Assembly (NCBI RefSeq): GCF_019924045.1
Contig: NZ_JAHXBN010000036.1
Span: 1 to 64,000, forward strand
Reading direction: 5' to 3'
Length of the DNA stretch: 64,000 bases
Origin: Dyadobacter fermentans
GTDB lineage: Bacteria; Bacteroidota; Bacteroidia; Cytophagales; Spirosomataceae
Shown here: piece after piece, positions 16,662 through 25,079 of the stretch
How the letters are laid out: every line of letters begins with the position of its first letter
Numbering within the stretch: the stretch's first letter is position 1
The notes under the pieces: model-generated
Databases searched by the model: none
Told to the model about the DNA's origin: nothing
Seen by the model: only the letters and a program-made list of their open reading frames with translations
Made by a program: the position numbers and the translations under genes

Positions 16662-19298
16662 TTACTCGCTTTTCAGGACTTTCGCCGGGTTACTCCGGGC
16701 AGCCCGGGCGGTTTGGGAGCCGATCATGACCAGGGCCAGCAGCATCACAATCAATGCCCCGCCCAGCATTTCGGGGATACTAATGGGCTGGTGGTAGGCA
16801 AAGCCGGTAAGCAGTACTTTATCGAATAGCAGGTAAGTGGCCGGCAAGGCTATCAGTGCTGCAACGGCCAGCAGGGTGATAAAGCCGCGGCAGAGGAGGT
16901 ATACCAATCCCGGCTCGCTGGCACCCAGTACTTTGCGGATACTGATTTCCTTCAATTTTGTTTCGGTTGTGAACACGACCATGCCGAAAAGGCCTAGCGA
17001 AGCAATGCAAATAGCCAGGAACGCCAGAAAGCCTATCACTTTGATCATCATGGAAAACCGGCTGTATGCGTCTTCAATCTGATCATTATAAAAATTCGCT
17101 TTCAGCGGGTGAATCTTGTCGAACCGTTTCCAGGCCGATTCAATTTTCGTCATCGTACTGGCGAGGTCGGTGGAAGCTATTTTGAGGTTCAGATAACCCC
17201 ATGGCTCGCTTTGCGAATAGCGGAACATCACCGGTTCTATCTTGTTTTCGACGGTTCCGTAATGAAAGTCTTTCATGACCCCGATAATCGTCAGGTCTTG
17301 CCCGTCGACCTTCAAAACGTGTCCTAATGCCTTCTGAGGGTCGCGTCCGCCGATATTGAACCGTTTCAAAACCTGCTGGTTGACGATCAGCTCGCTTTCT
17401 TTTCCTTTTTCCGGCCGTAGTGTGAAGTTGCTGCCGCTAATCAGTTTGTGTTGGTGAATAGGGAGGTAGTTTTCGTCCACTGTATTGACCCAAACCAAAG
17501 CCGAATCTCCGGGCGTTGACGCATTGGGACGATATTTTACATCAAAACCATACATACTTCCCAGGCTGGTAACCATGCTGGATTGGGAGATCTTCGATAC
17601 TTCGGGAATTTCCGACAGCTCTTTTTTTAATGCCGCTGCGTCGGCACCATTAAGCTTGATATTCAGGATGTTTTCGGTCGTGAAGCCGAGGTCGAAATTC
17701 AGAAAGCCCTTGTACTGGCTGTACCCTGCGAGCGTGGTAGCGATGAATACCAACGAGAGCGTGTATTGTGCCACAATCAGTACCCGTCTTAATCCGATGT
17801 GCCTGAAAATCCGTAGCCCGGAAGCATCCTTCATCGCAGACAATGCATTGATCTTCGAAAAGAAAACGGCGGGAAGAAATCCTGCGACGAGGCCGGTAAT
17901 GATTGCCAACGCGATAAACGAAAGCACCGACCGAACCGAAAGGTTGAGTTTGAATATTTCGGGAATATGCGGGTCGAGCGCCAGGAATTCACGTCGCAGG
18001 ACCAGGTACAACCCGAAAGAAAAGACCAGTGCCAGAAAGGAAATCAGCACTGCCTCGGTCATAAATTGCCCCAAAACATGGCTCCTGCGTGCACCTATGA
18101 TCTTGCGCACGCCCACCTCGCGCGAGCGCCTGAGCGACCGCGCGACCGACAGGTTGGTATAGTTGAAGCAAGCCGACAAAATGATCACAAAAGCCAGCCC
18201 GGCTAATATCCAGAGGGTAGTTGGTTCCATCCGCGGCCCCATATTGTTTGAAAGTTTGCGTCCCAGTGCAATGTCCTTCAGTGGTTGGAGCGACAATGTT
18301 ACCTTTTTCCGGACAAGGGCCTTGTTCTCTTCCGAACTGATTTGACTGAGCGCCCGCTGTACGCCTGCCGTGCTGCCGTTTTTGGCAAGGGTTATATAGG
18401 TATAGTTGGACCATACATTGTCCCAGTTATACAATTCATCCTGCTTTTTGCCTATCGTTGCGTCCCAGCTGGCAAACGACAGAAGGGCATCAAAATGGAT
18501 ATGGGAAAGGGTCTGGATATCCCTGGCGACGCCGGTAATCTGGTAGTCGAGCGTATCGAAGCGCACAGTCTTACCCAAAACCTGGGTGCTGCCGAACAGC
18601 CGCTTTGCCGTTTTTTCCGTCAAAACCAGGGAGTAGGGTTGTTGGAGGGCCGTTGCGGGATCGCCTGCTACCAACGGAAAGGTAAATACCTTGAAGAATG
18701 ACCGATCGGCCCAGGTAGCTTCGAGGGGGAAAGTATTTTGCCCCACCTTGGCATCTCCCGAAAAACCATTCCGAAGCATGGTAAAGTTCTCTACGCCCGG
18801 AACGTCACCAGCGAGTCTTTGGGCGGTTCTTACGGACGTCGAAGCCAGGTCCATCGGCGTCTGGCCGTCATTCTGATGATGCGTGATCACCCGGTAAATG
18901 CGGTCCTTCTTTTCATGAAAATCATCGTAGGAAAGCAGATCATTCACGATGGCAATCACCAGCAATCCAACCGACATGCTCACCGCAAGGCCGACAACGT
19001 TGATAAACGAAAAGAGTTTGTTGCGGACGAGGTTACGTCTCGAAGTTTTAAAATAGCTGCCGATCATCATGAATTGGGTTAGAAAAGTGAGAGGTTCTAT
19101 TTTGCGGATGGTATAGGGCCTGAGGAACTTGATCACATCGAGCCAATAGACCAGGCGTGCATAACGGAGACCTTTCCGGCGCACATTCCGGATAAAATAT
19201 TCGTAGAGATCGCCTTCCAGGTCTTCCAGCAGCCGGGGCCGGCAATACCATCTCAGGAAAGCCGTGGCCCATTGCGGAGGTTGCGGGTCCTTGTTCAT
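16662..19298 (-). CDS. FtsX/MacB-type ABC transporter permease with PadR-linked prefix domain
   Basis: An 878-residue protein. The first 75 residues (QWATAFLRWYCRPRLLEDLEGDLYEYF) form the permease prefix domain found in permeases whose gene follows a padR gene. Then comes a MacB-like core: membrane segment near 100-120, a large periplasmic domain (to about 350), three segments with the FtsX motif (SVARSLRRSREVGVRKIIGARR), a second periplasmic domain and three last segments with KEISIRKVLGAS. It ends in NPAKVLKSE. Family members use an ATPase encoded elsewhere and move peptides, lipids or drugs from the membrane. The start ATG overlaps the padR stop by 4 bp, so the two are translationally coupled. 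PadR is the likely repressor. Confidence 0.92.
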   Translation of the reverse strand: MNKDPQPPQWATAFLRWYCRPRLLEDLEGDLYEYFIRNVRRKGLRYARLVYWLDVIKFLRPYTIRKIEPLTFLTQFMMIGSYFKTSRRNLVRNKLFSFINVVGLAVSMSVGLLVIAIVNDLLSYDDFHEKKDRIYRVITHHQNDGQTPMDLASTSVRTAQRLAGDVPGVENFTMLRNGFSGDAKVGQNTFPLEATWADRSFFKVFTFPLVAGDPATALQQPYSLVLTEKTAKRLFGSTQVLGKTVRFDTLDYQITGVARDIQTLSHIHFDALLSFASWDATIGKKQDELYNWDNVWSNYTYITLAKNGSTAGVQRALSQISSEENKALVRKKVTLSLQPLKDIALGRKLSNNMGPRMEPTTLWILAGLAFVIILSACFNYTNLSVARSLRRSREVGVRKIIGARRSHVLGQFMTEAVLISFLALVFSFGLYLVLRREFLALDPHIPEIFKLNLSVRSVLSFIALAIITGLVAGFLPAVFFSKINALSAMKDASGLRIFRHIGLRRVLIVAQYTLSLVFIATTLAGYSQYKGFLNFDLGFTTENILNIKLNGADAAALKKELSEIPEVSKISQSSMVTSLGSMYGFDVKYRPNASTPGDSALVWVNTVDENYLPIHQHKLISGSNFTLRPEKGKESELIVNQQVLKRFNIGGRDPQKALGHVLKVDGQDLTIIGVMKDFHYGTVENKIEPVMFRYSQSEPWGYLNLKIASTDLASTMTKIESAWKRFDKIHPLKANFYNDQIEDAYSRFSMMIKVIGFLAFLAICIASLGLFGMVVFTTETKLKEISIRKVLGASEPGLVYLLCRGFITLLAVAALIALPATYLLFDKVLLTGFAYHQPISIPEMLGGALIVMLLALVMIGSQTARAARSNPAKVLKSE

Positions 19299-19630
19299 AT
19301 GGATCCTTCCAGGTTAAAACCAGGGATATTCCGCCAGATAGCCTCGCGCAGTTCCTTCGCACGCATGAGCGCGACCTTGCCCGCGTGGGTTACTTCATAA
19401 AAGCGTTTGCGCTTACCTCCCCGTGTGGCACTGGCATCGCCCAGGTGGCTTTTGGCCAGCCCCTTTTCTTCAAGCCTGTTGAGTACGGCATGCACCACGC
19501 CCAGCTTGGCCGAGCGGCCCGTGTACCTTTCCAGTTCGTCGCAAATCGCTACACTGTAAGCTTCGGCAGCGAGCGCGGCAATGGTGAGCAATACCAGTTC
19601 TTCAAATTCGCCAAGGTTGGTCCCTTTCAT
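19295..19630 (-). CDS. PadR-family transcriptional regulator
   Basis: A 111-residue winged-helix protein with the PadR pattern: LGEFEELVLLTIAALAAEAYSVAI (helix 1-2), LGVVHAVLNRLEEKGLAKSHLG (recognition helix) and RFYEVTHAGKVAL (wing). It has the short C-terminal dimer helix of the small PadR group. The coding end overlaps the permease start by 4 bp, the standard arrangement in Bacteroidota. It very probably represses its own operon through the dyad at 19650-19670. The ligand is unknown. Confidence 0.93.
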   Translation of the reverse strand: MKGTNLGEFEELVLLTIAALAAEAYSVAICDELERYTGRSAKLGVVHAVLNRLEEKGLAKSHLGDASATRGGKRKRFYEVTHAGKVALMRAKELREAIWRNIPGFNLEGSI

Positions 19631-19649
19631 CTGGCCGACAGTATTTTAG

Positions 19650-19670
19650 TGTATTTAGTCATTAAATGTA
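19650..19670 (-). promoter_or_regulatory. Promoter/operator dyad of the padR-permease operon
   Basis: TGTATTTA (19650-19657) is mirrored by TAAATGTA (19663-19670) with 7 of 8 positions matching and a 5-base spacer. On the minus strand the second arm reads TACATTTA, one base off the TAnnTTTG -7 box, 33 bases before the ATG at 19630. It is a plausible autoregulatory PadR site. Confidence 0.5.
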
Positions 19671-19783
19671 TGTATTATCAGAATATAAAATCATGTTTTG
19701 TATGTAAAATATTTTTTAGCATTAACAATCTCTATTTTTTTATCCCCGGGCTAAAGACCGGGGCAAGGGGACTGCGAGGGGAC

Positions 19784-19813
19784 AAAAAAGAGGTTGCCGC
19801 TGCCGGCAACCTC
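19784..19813 (-). terminator. Rho-independent terminator of the susCD operon
   Basis: On the minus strand a 10-bp stem (GAGGTTGCCG with CGGCAACCTC, 19813-19804 and 19799-19790) and a 4-base loop are followed by TTTTTT. It lies about 170 bases after the susD stop codon and beyond the decamer array, so the array should be part of the susCD transcript. A second dyad (CCCCGG/CCGGGG, 19744-19763) follows without a T run. Confidence 0.8.
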
Positions 19814-19830
19814 GCTGTCAAAGTAGTATA

Positions 19831-19980
19831 CATGACAATTACTAATAATTCATGACAATGCATCACTACATCTGACAATGCATAACCATTCATGACCATT
19901 CATGACAATTCATGACTACATCTGACCATTCATGACAATGCATGACAATGCATCACTACATCTGACAATTCCTAACACAC
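19831..19980. repeat. Tandem array of fifteen 10-bp units (consensus CATGACAATK)
   Basis: From 19831 to 19980 the DNA is a continuous run of 10-base units without gaps. Five are exactly CATGACAATT or CATGACAATG (19831, 19851, 19901, 19931, 19941). Most others differ by one to four bases, such as CATGACCATT, CATAACCATT and TCTGACAATG; the last unit (19971) is the most diverged. There is a higher order: the 30-base block CATGACAATG-CATCACTACA-TCTGACAATG at 19851-19880 recurs at 19941-19970 with one change, and a related 20-base block is at 19911-19930. The period of 10 does not fit a codon repeat. It lies directly after susD and before its terminator. Confidence 0.95.
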
Positions 19981-19986
19981 CGCACC

Positions 19987-21765
19987 CTACCAACCCGGGT
20001 TCTGGCCCAAAGCAGGATTTCTGATGCGATCCGGTTCCGGAATGGGATAGAGGTATTTCTTGTCCGCCCATTCGCGTGCGCCGGGGTTCCACATTACCTC
20101 GCCGGAAGTACCTTTTGATAATTGAATGCGGCCTACGGCAGTCGAGGGACTCACATCCACGAATGCGATACCCGGCGTGGTGGAAGTAGGTTTGGTACCC
20201 TGGTAGAAATACACGTCGTTCTTCCCGTCGCCGTTCAGATCATATTCGCCGAGCGCCGGTACGTACATGCCGTTCATCGGGCTGCTCTGGAACAGATTAC
20301 CGAGTTTCCATCTTCTCAGGTCGTCGGGGCGGAGGCCTTCGAAGATCATCTCCGTACCTCTTTCGCGCAATACTTCGAGCAGCACCGGATTGGTAAACTT
20401 GCCGCCAAAGAAAGACACCATGTAAGGATCGGCTGTGGTAGGAAGGCTCGTCAATGTAGTGCCGGTGATACCCGCGCGCTTGCGCAACGCGCCGATCGTG
20501 TTCGTCCACTCCGCGTCCGTCATTTTATCGAGCTCGGCCAGTGCTTCCGCTTTGTTCAACAGTACTTCCGCCCAGCGCATGATGATATGCGCATTATCGT
20601 TGCGGCTTTCGTCATCGAAAGGAAAGCGCTCGTCATAGCACCATTTGATCGGCTGGTAGCCGGTGTAGGTCTGGCTGAAATTCGGGGGGGCAATCACGGG
20701 GACGCCGTTTTCGGTGCGGGTGTAGTCGCCGGTACGGATGGTTTGTTTCAAACGCAAATCGCGGTTCTTAACCTCTTCAACGAAAGGGGTTGTTTCGTAG
20801 TCCTTTTTGCTGGTGAAAGGAGTACCATCCAGGTTCAGGTAGGTATTTACAAACCGGCGCGTCAGGCTGGGACGGTTGCCGTAAGTAGGACTGATGAACC
20901 GGCGGTTGGCCGAGCTGTATATCTGCAAGCTCGCGCTCAATGCTACCGAGAGGATCGTTTCGTCGGTGTAGGCACTTTTCGCGAGGAAGAGTTCGCGGTA
21001 GGCTCTGTCGGGTGTAGTCGAATGCAGCGTAAAGCCGGTGATCGCGTTGGCCTCTTTTACTACCTCTTCATACCACGTATTGGCGGTTGCCTGCTTGTTG
21101 TCTTCGGTATGATATTTCCGCCAGGATGCCTCGAACAATGCTATCCGCGTTTTGTAAGCGCGGGCGACGTTTTTGGTAATGCGTGTCACCGAGGGGTCGG
21201 AGGTCAGCGTAATGTTCTCGATCGCGAAGTTGAGGTCCGCCAGCACTTTGTCCATTACTTCATAACGGTTCATACGAGCGCCATACAGCGCCGCATCGTC
21301 GTCCACGCCGATGGTCTTATCGATCCAGGGAACATCACCGAATCTTTTTACTTTATCAAAATAGAACAAGGCCCGGAAAAAGCGAGCGACCCCCAGGTAA
21401 TGATTCTTGGTTGGGACAGTGCTTTTTTCGGTATTTTCAATGAAGTAATTGATGTTGCGCAGCTGTGTCCAACTCCATCCACTGCTGGTGATGGGGCTTA
21501 ATGCATTGACGGCAAGGTAGTCGTCGACGCCGTTTCGGGCCACGAGGTCGGAGTTGTCGTCGATCTGGAATACGCCTACATCGGTACCGGGAAGCAGGTC
21601 GTAAAAAGAGCCCGCATAAAGTTCCAAACCGCTTTCGGAGCCGAACACGGCTTCATTGGTGGCGGTATCCACCGGTACCTCGTTCAGATCGCAGGAGCTT
21701 GCCGTAGCGAGCAGCATGACGGCAAGGGTGTAGCTAAGTATTTTTTTCGTCTTCATAAATTCCAT
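19987..21765 (-). CDS. SusD/RagB-family outer-membrane lipoprotein
   Basis: A 592-residue protein with a lipoprotein signal (MLLATASSC-DLNEVP, lipobox Cys near residue 28). It has the SusD fold: N-terminal TPR-like helices (GLELYAGSFYDLL, YFIENTEKST, VARFFRALFYFDKVKRFGDVPW) and a C-terminal part with RWAEVLLNKAEALAELDK and REWADKKYLYPIPEPDRIRNPALGQNPGW. SusD proteins bind glycans at the cell surface and form the lid on SusC. The ATG at 21765 overlaps the susC stop as TAATG, which supports translational coupling and the start MEFMKTKK. The sugar cannot be told from sequence. No sigma/anti-sigma pair or hybrid sensor is next to the operon. Confidence 0.95.
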   Translation of the reverse strand: MEFMKTKKILSYTLAVMLLATASSCDLNEVPVDTATNEAVFGSESGLELYAGSFYDLLPGTDVGVFQIDDNSDLVARNGVDDYLAVNALSPITSSGWSWTQLRNINYFIENTEKSTVPTKNHYLGVARFFRALFYFDKVKRFGDVPWIDKTIGVDDDAALYGARMNRYEVMDKVLADLNFAIENITLTSDPSVTRITKNVARAYKTRIALFEASWRKYHTEDNKQATANTWYEEVVKEANAITGFTLHSTTPDRAYRELFLAKSAYTDETILSVALSASLQIYSSANRRFISPTYGNRPSLTRRFVNTYLNLDGTPFTSKKDYETTPFVEEVKNRDLRLKQTIRTGDYTRTENGVPVIAPPNFSQTYTGYQPIKWCYDERFPFDDESRNDNAHIIMRWAEVLLNKAEALAELDKMTDAEWTNTIGALRKRAGITGTTLTSLPTTADPYMVSFFGGKFTNPVLLEVLRERGTEMIFEGLRPDDLRRWKLGNLFQSSPMNGMYVPALGEYDLNGDGKNDVYFYQGTKPTSTTPGIAFVDVSPSTAVGRIQLSKGTSGEVMWNPGAREWADKKYLYPIPEPDRIRNPALGQNPGW

Positions 21766-24700
21766 TAAAAATTGAGTGACAAGCCGATCGATACGGATTT
21801 CAGCATCGGGTAGTTGTAACCGTCACCAGAGCTTCCGCCGCCAAGGTCGCGGTCGGATCCGTAAATGCTGGTCACGTCGGTGTCGCGGGTCCATTTGTAC
21901 AGCGGCGACCACGTCCAGATATTTTCGCCTGAAACGTAAACTTTCAGGTCGCGGGCGTGGATTTTCGAGGTAATGCGCTCCGGAATGGTGTATCCTATTT
22001 GCAGGTTTCTTAAACGGATATAGCCCACGTTCTGCATGTAACGGTCGTTGGCAACCTGCAACGCGCGGCCTGAGCCTTGCGCCACATATCCTACGAGACG
22101 CGGCAGGTAAGCATCGAAGTTGCCCAGCTCTTCGCGGTACATATTATCCTTTTGCCAGCGTGGATAGGCGTTGTAAGGACGGTTGTACTGTCCCCAGAAA
22201 CGCGCTTCCGATGATGGATACCAGTTTTGCTTCAATACCCCCTGGAAGAAGGCGCCGAGAAAGAAGCCGTTCCAGTCACCCGACAGGTTCACTCCGTAGC
22301 TGTAACGCGGCTCAGAGTTGCCGATAATGGTTTTGTCTCCCGAATTACCCACACGGTTCAAACCCTGGTAAATCACATTGTCACCGTCCAGGTTCTGGAA
22401 TTTCAGATCGCCGGGATAGTTTTTTCGCGTGTTGGTGTTGGGGATGTTCGATTGGGAAGGAGATTCTGCGATTTCAGCGTCTGATCGAAATAAACCTGCC
22501 ACTTTGTATCCCCAGATCTCACCCACGCGCTGGCCTTCGTAATAGTCGGTCAGGTTTTTGTCGGGGTTGTTGTATTTGGTGATAGTCGCTTTGTAATCGG
22601 CCAATGTGAAACGGACATTATAGTGGAATGGCTTGGACGCCATGTTGAACTGATCGTCCCAATTAATCGAAAGCTCCCATCCGTTCGTTTTCAGGTCGGC
22701 ATAGTTCCCTTTTGGAACGCCCGTTCCAAAAACAGCAGGCAATGTCGGTCCGACGGTGAACATGTCCGTCGTTTTACGCTGGTACATATCTCCGGAGAAT
22801 TGGAGGCGGCCGTTCAGCGCATAGAAATCCAAACCAAGGTTGGCGGTGGTAGCCGTTTCCCAGGTCAGACCGTTCGGTACGACACCCGGCATACTCGTAG
22901 TTTGCGGACGAATCCCGTTGATCACGCGTCCGGATTGCGAAATGCTGAATTTCTCATTGAATGTGTACGGGTCGATATTACCATTACCCAGCGAACCGTA
23001 AGAAGCACGGACTTTCACGTTGGAAAGGATTTTGGGGTCCACTTTCCAGAATGGCTCCTCGGATACCCGCCATCCAGCCGATACCGACGGGAAGAATGCC
23101 CATTGCTGGTCGGTCGGGAACTTGGAAGAACCATCGTAGCGCCCGTTCACTTCAAGCAGGTAGCGCTCGCGGAAATTGTAGTTCAAACGGAAAAAACCTC
23201 CCGCGATAGCCCATTTACGGTAACCGCCCTGAGTGGTGATGCTTTGTCCCAATGCGAGGTTAATATCGTCCGCGCCGCTGTACACAATACCGTTGCGCTG
23301 CGCAGCCAGGTTGGTCGTGAGTGACCGCTCGTAGTTGAAACCGCCCAGCAAGGTGAAGTTGTGCGCATTGTTGAACGACTTCACGTAGTCGGCATAGAAG
23401 TTGGTAGCGAGATAGTTAATCGTGTTGCGCCCTTCCGCAATGTCGTTGGTGTTGGTGCCGGTATAGCCGATTACCCCCTTGGTGCGGCTGTATGGTACCT
23501 GCACCCGAATCTGGCTCGTCGCGAGGTCGGTGCTCTGGAACGTCATGTTGGCTTTAAGCGTCAGCGCTTTCTGGAAGAATTGAGCTTTCAACGCCGTCTG
23601 GTTTTTGAGGAACCGGCGGGTCTGATCCTGGGCATTGCGGCCGTAATAGTAATCACCCACGGTGTAAGCCGCAGAGAATGAAAGTGTTCCGTCTGGGTTG
23701 GTCAATGGTGCCAACGGGTGGCCTTCGTCGGCGATGTTACGGTAAATACCGCTACCTTCACCGACATTCAGCGGCTGGTGGTATTTCATCGACGAGAACT
23801 CGGTGTTGTTATCTACGCGCAGCCACGACGTAAGCTGCACACCGCCTTTACCGCGGAAGTTGTACATGCTGTATTTATCGGTGTTGTAGCGGAACAGACC
23901 ATCCTGGTTATTGAAGCGCCCGCTCAGCAAATAAGTCGCTTTGTCGGTGCCGCCGGCGATGGACAATGCGTGGTCTTGAGCGCTGAGGTTTTTCTTGTAG
24001 AGCTCTTTATACCAATCGGTGCTGTAATAGTACTGATACTCGCCTGTCGAGGGGTTCACTTCTACGCGGGGCAGCGAGGGATCTTCGTATCTCCGTTTGA
24101 TCTCCGCCAGGTAGGCAGGCGAGAATGCAATGGTTTTGTTGATCGCGGTCGGCGTGCTGCCGTTGTCGTTCCAGCGCGACCAAGCATCGCTGAAACCCTG
24201 TGCCCATGGATAAGAATCCACGATATTGTCTGGTACTTCGGTCGGTGCTTTGATCGAGTAGTTGGCCGAATAGGAAACCCGCATTTTGCCTTCGGGGGCT
24301 GGTTTCGTAGTAATCAACACCACCCCGAACACGGCACGGGCACCGTAAATGGAGGCCGAAGCCGCATCTTTCAATACCGAAATGCTCTCGATATCCTGCG
24401 GGTTCAGCATGCGCGGGTCACCTTCCACACCGTCGATCAGGACGAGTGCACTTCCTTGCTGACCAATGGAAGTAGTACCGCGGACGTTGAACTGAGGTGA
24501 TTGCGTAGGTTTCCCGTCGAACATCCGGATGTTCAGGTTGGGTACGACACCCACCAGGCCTTGCGCGAGGTTAGGCACGGGACGGTTTTGCAGCACTTCC
24601 TGCCCCACCTGGTCCACCGCACCGGTCAGGTTTACTTTCTTTTGGGTGCCATATCCGACAACCACCACCTCGTTGAGCGATTTGGTGTCGGCCTTCAATG

Positions 24701-25079
24701 CGACATCGATGGTGGACCGTGTGCCAGTCGCGACTTCCTGGCTTGTGTAGCCAACATAAGAGAACACCAGCACGGCGCCGCCTTCGGGGATTTCGAGGGT
24801 GTAGTTACCGCTTGCATCGGTGACCGTACCAGCCTGACTGCCTTTGATAACGACGTTCACACCGGGGATACCGTCGGGGGTATCACCATCGGTTACGCGA
24901 CCTTTGATCTGACGATCGGCCTTCACAATGCTCTTGTGTACGTTACCGGGCAGAGTGCCGGTTTTAAGGGTAGGGCTTGCCAAGCTCGTGCCGCCGATTA
25001 TCGCGAGCAGCGCCGCATGGGCAATCGATTTTTGTAAGGTGCCTGCACCAAGCGGCCACCTTTCGTTACATCGATACAT
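21765..25079 (-). CDS. SusC/RagA-family TonB-linked outer-membrane transporter
   Basis: A 1,104-residue protein. After a signal segment (HAALLAIIGGTSLAS) comes a carboxypeptidase-regulatory-like beta domain (QIKGRVTDGDTPDGIPGVNVVIKG, about 58-135), then a TonB-box region (LNEVVVVGYGTQKKVNLTGAV), the plug (NIRGTT-like, here NVRGTTSIG; DGVEGDPR) and a 22-strand barrel ending in SIGLSLNF. This is the transporter half of a SusCD pair and brings oligosaccharides into the periplasm with energy from TonB-ExbBD. It lacks the N-terminal signalling domain of the FecI/FecR-controlled group, so regulation must be by another route. The 370 bp upstream hold no gene. Confidence 0.96.
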   Translation of the reverse strand: MYRCNERWPLGAGTLQKSIAHAALLAIIGGTSLASPTLKTGTLPGNVHKSIVKADRQIKGRVTDGDTPDGIPGVNVVIKGSQAGTVTDASGNYTLEIPEGGAVLVFSYVGYTSQEVATGTRSTIDVALKADTKSLNEVVVVGYGTQKKVNLTGAVDQVGQEVLQNRPVPNLAQGLVGVVPNLNIRMFDGKPTQSPQFNVRGTTSIGQQGSALVLIDGVEGDPRMLNPQDIESISVLKDAASASIYGARAVFGVVLITTKPAPEGKMRVSYSANYSIKAPTEVPDNIVDSYPWAQGFSDAWSRWNDNGSTPTAINKTIAFSPAYLAEIKRRYEDPSLPRVEVNPSTGEYQYYYSTDWYKELYKKNLSAQDHALSIAGGTDKATYLLSGRFNNQDGLFRYNTDKYSMYNFRGKGGVQLTSWLRVDNNTEFSSMKYHQPLNVGEGSGIYRNIADEGHPLAPLTNPDGTLSFSAAYTVGDYYYGRNAQDQTRRFLKNQTALKAQFFQKALTLKANMTFQSTDLATSQIRVQVPYSRTKGVIGYTGTNTNDIAEGRNTINYLATNFYADYVKSFNNAHNFTLLGGFNYERSLTTNLAAQRNGIVYSGADDINLALGQSITTQGGYRKWAIAGGFFRLNYNFRERYLLEVNGRYDGSSKFPTDQQWAFFPSVSAGWRVSEEPFWKVDPKILSNVKVRASYGSLGNGNIDPYTFNEKFSISQSGRVINGIRPQTTSMPGVVPNGLTWETATTANLGLDFYALNGRLQFSGDMYQRKTTDMFTVGPTLPAVFGTGVPKGNYADLKTNGWELSINWDDQFNMASKPFHYNVRFTLADYKATITKYNNPDKNLTDYYEGQRVGEIWGYKVAGLFRSDAEIAESPSQSNIPNTNTRKNYPGDLKFQNLDGDNVIYQGLNRVGNSGDKTIIGNSEPRYSYGVNLSGDWNGFFLGAFFQGVLKQNWYPSSEARFWGQYNRPYNAYPRWQKDNMYREELGNFDAYLPRLVGYVAQGSGRALQVANDRYMQNVGYIRLRNLQIGYTIPERITSKIHARDLKVYVSGENIWTWSPLYKWTRDTDVTSIYGSDRDLGGGSSGDGYNYPMLKSVSIGLSLNF

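Follow-up and report, generated by a model that had tools for sequence, protein, structure and literature searches.

Oriented ten-base repeat arrays between Dyadobacter genes, possible sites of a sequence-specific factor

Polar protein roadblocks such as Tus-Ter and Reb1/TTF-I halt a polymerase that arrives at an oriented site from one side. For repetitive extragenic palindromic (REP) sequences and bacterial interspersed mosaic elements (BIMEs), roles in termination and mRNA stability have been proposed. Long simple sequence repeats and the short tandemly repeated repetitive (STRR) sequences of cyanobacteria consist of perfect or near-perfect copies. Direct repeats of the heptamer TAACTGA have been described in Beggiatoaceae, Cyanobacteria, and five Bacteroidetes (MacGregor 2015, PMC4679880), and that paper also refers to long simple sequence repeats with tandem units of 1-11 bases (Mrazek 2007). 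These heptamers are the nearest published case that I found for an array of ten-base units behind a susCD operon of Dyadobacter fermentans. The array lies in a stretch of 64,000 nucleotides (contig NZ_JAHXBN010000036.1, positions 1 to 64,000), hereafter called the window. It was found that the susCD array belongs to a genus-wide intergenic family and that Dyadobacter genomes can hold hundreds of the repeats. The arrays may be sites for a sequence-specific factor, perhaps serving as polar transcription boundaries; I put the probability of this reading at roughly 0.36. No paper describing these arrays was found, as judged by titles and the starts of abstracts, with the subscription literature largely uncovered.

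Like the TAACTGA heptamers, as PMC4679880 presents them, the decamers are short direct intergenic repeats with a patchy phylogeny, no pattern in the functions of neighboring genes, and array-free gaps in close relatives. Unlike those repeats of period 7, the Dyadobacter arrays have a period of 10, a TGACNA core, degenerate units, mostly paired inverted arms, and a majority of arms nearest to stop codons. With REP and BIME sequences, described in part in PMC3733652, they share many intergenic copies that are often inverted and near gene ends. However, a REP is a single palindrome of 20-40 bp with a GTAG or CGTC tag, whereas the Dyadobacter unit, 10 bases long and repeated in tandem, is not a palindrome and has TGAC/GTCA as its fixed tetramer. 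Long simple sequence repeats and STRR sequences differ too, since half of the Dyadobacter unit is free within limits, neighboring units are hardly alike outside the core (identity of 0.33-0.60), and the arms are paired and oriented. If the boundary model holds, the arrays would work like Tus-Ter and Reb1/TTF-I in stopping a polymerase from one side at oriented sites, with the difference that the sites come in arrays and the binding protein is putative.

The susCD array occupies positions 19831-19980 (plus strand) and comprises fifteen units of exactly 10 bases each, as an earlier note made from the letters of the window had observed. Tandem Repeats Finder reported periods of 10, 20, 40, and 50. 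A two-unit pattern with at most 3 mismatches matched 8 times in the window, always inside the array (0.09 matches expected from 100 shuffles). In the phase of the core (TGAC at 19833), 14 units are called at 19833-19972, ten of which have a perfect TGACNA core. The plus-strand unit is TGAC-N-A-N4, and the susD mRNA, made from the minus strand, would read GTCA (UNGUCA). A 30-base block of three units at 19851-19880 returns at 19941-19970 with one difference, an internal block duplication on the plus strand. The array ends six bases away from the stop codon (19987-19989) of a susD-like gene (SusD_RagB; 19987-21765, minus strand), which adjoins a susC-like TonB-dependent receptor gene (21765-25079, minus strand). 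On its other side, a terminator-like hairpin of 10 pairs followed by TTTTTTGTCC lies at 19790-19813 on the minus strand. The array itself shows no GC-rich hairpin with a T run, the mark of an intrinsic terminator, and a scan of 19600-20050 places such hairpins only at 19790-19813. Since it lies between the susD stop codon and this hairpin, the array is probably in the 3′ untranslated region (UTR) of the susCD mRNA, as had been proposed. The 207-nt 3′ stretch that holds the array and the terminator has a more stable fold than its shuffled versions (z of −2.98, a figure that includes the terminator hairpin). A search of 19500-20300 against Rfam gave only two matches, with E values of 0.77 and 0.99 and under the gathering scores, and thus no described RNA family.

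The earlier note had suggested searching related genomes, and this proved decisive. In the 8.0-Mb source genome (G000), the four-unit pattern TGACNA-N4 has 563 matches (285 in forward and 278 in reverse orientation, with overlaps inside one array counted separately), and the reversed-pattern control has none. The pattern occurs in 30 of 41 Dyadobacter genomes, the source genome included, with a range of 0-563 matches; the controls gave 0 in all 41. An earlier sample of 59 genomes had given the pattern in 27 of 37 members of the genus and in 0 of 22 genomes of other genera. With a narrower pattern, 3 of 395 genomes across the phylum were positive, counting the source (2 of 394 others). When named contigs were scanned, 49 of the best 80 of 103 stretches belonged to Dyadobacter, the named set used below, and 31 to other taxa, 28 of which were displayed. 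Many of these 31 records, among the matches listed, are plain minisatellites that fit the pattern. Some of the Bacteroidota among the matches listed, for instance Spirosoma panaciterrae and a Flavobacterium, have the same degenerate unit, and four stretches of viral contigs match a five-unit pattern. TGAC decamer arrays were also seen on several contigs, with similar flanks, of the Bacteroidales metagenome-assembled genome Tobar18m-G2 (L090, L107, L120) and on several contigs of the Verrucomicrobiales metagenome-assembled genome RYN_623 (L095, L138, L139). A genome of the same order and another genus (G038) has 7 matches to the reversed control, possibly representing a different 10-bp family.

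What is constant in the unit? Two whole contigs of the source genome (C9 and C17) and the window, 1.84 Mb together, contain 42 arrays in which three or more units are perfect; their reversed sequence contains none. The consensus of 529 units is TGAC-H-A-Y-W-C-M; at position 5, A, C, and T take one third each and G 0.01, and G does not exceed 0.07 at any non-core position. To avoid circularity, the core was assessed in units flanked by two perfect units, with the unit's own core ignored. It was found that 262 of 293 such middle units are perfect, with neighbor identity of 0.97-0.98 at the core positions and 0.33, random over A/C/T, at position 5. Similarly, 469 middle units from the 49 named Dyadobacter loci have core identities of 0.97-1.00 and 0.33 at position 5. 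In C9, C17, and the window, intergenic TGACNA pairs are spaced by 10 bases in 189 cases, by 11 in 12, and by every other distance from 5 to 18 in 0-3, with peaks at multiples of 10; coding DNA has no such peak. In the same sequences, TGAC/GTCA ranks first of 256 tetramers at period 10. The main rival explanation, a possible one in my view, is a neutral short-unit satellite, in which replication slippage and inverted template switching would build arrays in gaps that can be altered without harm and random loss and replacement would renew them with no trans-acting reader. However, under uniform mutation the five core positions could not stay at 0.97-0.98 next to a random position 5. Since the fixed core beside free positions and the gene-end polarity described below are unexplained by neutral growth, the core is most likely read by a factor.

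The genes around the arrays were examined in C9, C17, the window, and ten chosen stretches, where they had been called by a home-made, hexamer-based open reading frame caller rather than taken from a standard annotation. The first three gave 25 of the 41 loci and the stretches 16; by gap, 29 are tandem, 9 convergent, and 3 divergent. Two inverted arms are present at 25 of the 41 loci, and 16, the susCD array included, have one detected arm. In 24 of the 25 two-armed loci of the source genome, the arms point outward, that is, a GTCA-arm, a spacer, and a TGAC-arm follow one another. The same order was found in all 37 two-armed clusters among the 49 named loci, four pairs of which have homologous DNA. 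Among the 24 pairs analyzed, the spacers show no preferred length modulo 10, so no helical phasing from arm to arm was found.

A sense rule emerges when the arms are read in the direction of the nearest gene. Arms nearest to a stop read GTCA in 42 of 52 cases and those nearest to a start read TGAC in 22 of 23, so that 64 of 75 arms obey the rule (24 of 29 and 13 of 13, respectively, in C9, C17, and the window alone). In these three sequences, 29 of 42 arms are nearest to a stop against a null of 17.7 ± 3.4, which bears out the link to gene ends proposed at the outset; the excess is somewhat overstated, as arms of one cluster were counted separately. Linked units were found in 9 of 153 convergent, 16 of 789 tandem, and 2 of 224 divergent gaps (convergent versus divergent, p = 0.009). 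All six array-bearing tandem gaps shorter than 124 bp are TGAC-only; two pairs of these are orthologous between G000 and another genome of the genus (G018) and the other two are unrelated, which leaves four independent loci. Neither the arm order nor the sense rule is expected of a neutral satellite.

The placement before starts and after stops also recalls the TAACTGA heptamers: according to PMC4679880, these precede start codons in forward orientation, and in Flexibacter litoralis one set directly follows a stop codon in reverse. The decamers might be UTR sites for a post-transcriptional regulator such as an S1-, Csp-, or Csr-type RNA-binding protein, a role suggested for the heptamers too, and they likewise show the TGAC sense before starts and the GTCA sense after stops. 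I regard this as quite unlikely, because 52 of the 75 arms are nearest to stops and because the RNA sequence differs between the two senses, so that a single RNA-binding protein would not recognize both. Moreover, no functional class is apparent by eye among the neighboring genes.

The arrays grow in place by block duplication and turn over fast. When one 36-unit arm is excluded, two-unit words are repeated inside an arm 20 times, compared with 0.21 in shuffles, and shared by opposite arms of one locus 4 times, again compared with 0.21; both excesses fit the satellite explanation. Over the 41 loci, 4 two-unit words are common to different loci against about 10 in shuffles, and spread by copying between loci was rejected on this count. 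A satellite leaves unexplained why all loci have one core in common when words are not shared between them in excess. The identity between units is 0.52-0.58 at even lags and 0.44-0.48 at odd lags, with 0.41 expected from composition, and thus copying seems to involve blocks with an even number of units. One observation speaks the other way on copying between loci: two arrays 7 kb apart in L263 are 80% identical in a 79-bp alignment, which is slightly more than family members usually resemble each other.

This pair would suit REP-like or MITE-like mobile elements (miniature inverted-repeat transposable elements) that a transposase spreads and that insert as whole inverted units. So would what looks by eye like the clean insertion of a paired array behind kbl in G018 as compared with G454, directly after the stop codon, and the symmetric nesting of repeat families described below. 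Such mobility is nevertheless very improbable given the lack of excess in shared words between loci. Y1/RAYT-type transposases (PF01797) occur in 40 of the 41 genomes, and their number is unrelated to that of the arrays (Spearman 0.16, p = 0.33). RAYT was therefore dropped as a mobilizer, and the transposase link known for REP/BIME sequences is not seen here.

Orthologous gaps in other species, where the repeat families were judged by eye, were compared for susD (22 of 28 matches taken), thiD (30 of 40), and kbl (24 of 41, with G031 skipped for its short contig). The gene that follows susD in the same direction encodes a PadR-family regulator (19295-19630, minus strand), and a MacB/FtsX-type permease gene (16662-19298, minus strand) comes after padR. 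The susD-PadR order exists in nine genomes, including the source; a hairpin of the same type was seen by eye in eight of them (a variant in G034) and a T run after it in eight (not in G002). Between the susD stop and the terminator, G000, G018, G003, and G452 have decad arrays that differ in sequence and length, G454 has a single unit together with other material, and in G011 and G032 another repeat, of about 17 bp, takes the place. In the thiE-thiD gap, 12 of the 30 genomes examined have at least two units at the same place and in the same sense, while the units differ. Mapping covered nine of ten G018 arrays, and at three of these nine gaps the G018 decads match, wholly or partly, octads or heptads of G000. 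Rapid gain and loss between close species and gaps in which octads, heptads, or repeats of about 17 bp stand in for decads are what a satellite would produce, as is the presence of several unrelated repeat families in one genome.

The thiE stop codon TGA lies in the TGAC of the first unit (C9:973514), and the kbl stop codon TAG lies within TAGTCA or TAGTCG, the first array unit (gap at about C9:443270). A hairpin-containing spacer element of 266 bp separates the decad arms behind kbl in G000 (C9:443361-443626) and also occurs in the kbl gap of G003 and G452. A related-looking sequence lies between octad arms at C17:228770-229039.

These comparisons divide the claims of the earlier note. The period, the block repeat, the non-coding nature of the array, which is no protein repeat, and the link to gene ends all hold. 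A role tied to the susCD operon does not: two close relatives with the susD-PadR order lack the array, two have another repeat, and sister arrays adjoin genes of many kinds, as judged by eye. An obligatory role in the 3′ UTR is likewise unsupported, and reading the period as one helical turn is unneeded because the same genome has repeat families of periods 7 and 8. Copy-number phase variation of the susCD transcript, also suggested there, is hardly credible. The array is a tandem repeat whose copy number varies between species; however, degenerate units, with a neighbor identity outside the core of 0.44 against 0.41 by chance, poorly support single-unit slippage, and no reading frame or promoter distance that could be switched is apparent behind the array.

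Could the paired arms act as RNA stems? Whichever strand is transcribed, they might fold into long stems that shield 3′ ends or terminate transcription, as BIMEs or bidirectional terminators would. The 25 inverted pairs among the 41 loci fit this idea, and so does the greater frequency in convergent than in divergent gaps. The arm-arm duplex energies beat dinucleotide shuffles with a mean z of −5.1 over 24 pairs, and in the kbl gap of G011 a short inverted array of two units per arm is apparently, by eye, the sole content before a convergent gene. However, arms taken from foreign loci pair equally well (mean z of +0.45), indicating no locus-specific co-evolution, and a locus-specific hairpin was ruled against on this basis. 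The 16 loci with one detected arm, among them the susCD array, and the absence of a built-in T run from the unit also disagree with stems. In addition, a stem folds in either order and would not need the GTCA-arm to come first. These points make RNA stems an unlikely explanation. The C-rich, G-poor arm might also be taken for a rut-like site of Rho loading; this idea was set aside because in each transcript that arm follows the other one, with which it can pair.

How would a sequence-specific factor account for the arrays? The core may be the recognition site of the putative factor, as its conservation suggests. Polar boundary action is the more tentative part, to which the sense rule and the four independent short gaps point. 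In such a mechanism, the factor would load on the array through the core. A polymerase leaving a gene at its stop codon would meet the GTCA sense and be hindered, and one heading for a start codon would meet the TGAC sense and pass. Paired outward-pointing arms would thus insulate both neighboring genes, and a single arm, as behind susD, might back up the ordinary terminator. Only the permissive sense would be expected in operon-like gaps, and the few such cases agree. A fuller version, which I think unlikely to be correct in all its parts, holds that oriented decamer arrays mark intergenic edges, where a putative DNA-binding factor holds back the leaving polymerase and admits the entering one. 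The arrays would arise in place and be kept in the permitted polarity, and heptads, octads, and purine tracts would be interchangeable with them.

Several observations weigh against a sequence-specific factor with boundary action. One two-armed locus has the opposite arm order, 10 of 52 stop-nearest arms read TGAC, and 1 of 23 start-nearest arms reads GTCA. Divergent gaps compared with all others give p = 0.14. The argument from operon gaps comes down to the four independent loci, and the next single-sense gaps, of 125 and 149 bp, are GTCA-only. Canonical terminators were found at 7 of 28 gene ends with arrays and at 114 of 312 others (p = 0.30), or at 10 of 44 and 119 of 341 when the chosen stretches are added (p = 0.13). 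With this deficit non-significant, a substitution of arrays for ordinary terminators was discarded. No factor that recognizes the core was identified. The four-unit pattern has no match in 11 of the 41 genomes of the genus, so the arrays are not essential. The susD gap is without an array in the close species G002 and G034, and the kbl gap has arrays in 5 of 23 genomes examined, with close relatives lacking them. Finally, other repeat families occupy the same gaps, which one dedicated factor leaves unexplained.

These other families have designs of their own. A 7-bp family with a GACCRY core has inverted arms in the order GACC then GGTC, with runs of at least three units in 17 of 1166 gaps, 7 of them two-armed (examples in G000 are C9:975069-975359, C9:980195-980464, and C17:249452-249635). 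An 8-bp family with the unit TGAATGAN and partly inverted arms forms runs of three in 6 of 1166 gaps, 2 of them two-armed (C17:597285-597471, C9:441984-442080, and C17:228770-229039 in G000). It was found in 23 of the 41 genomes of the genus, some of them without decads (G015, G017). A purine arm (GGAGGAAGG..) followed by a pyrimidine arm (CCTTCCTCC..) fills whole gaps at C9:10007-10114 and C9:1026622-1026714 of G000, and such arms also occur in the kbl gap of G021, G006, G012, and G036. At C9:1097529-1097791 and C9:906448-906685 of G000, the families are nested symmetrically, with decad arms inside and purine or octad arms outside on both sides.

Short intergenic repeats are readily dismissed as products of slippage. 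In these arrays, a sequence reader is suggested by a fixed core beside free positions, by a polarity toward gene ends, and by the lack of excess copying from locus to locus. If this is not true, the decamers are a clear example of bacterial satellite DNA that imitates regulatory design. If it is true, they would constitute a boundary system at hundreds of genomic sites, widespread in the genus Dyadobacter.
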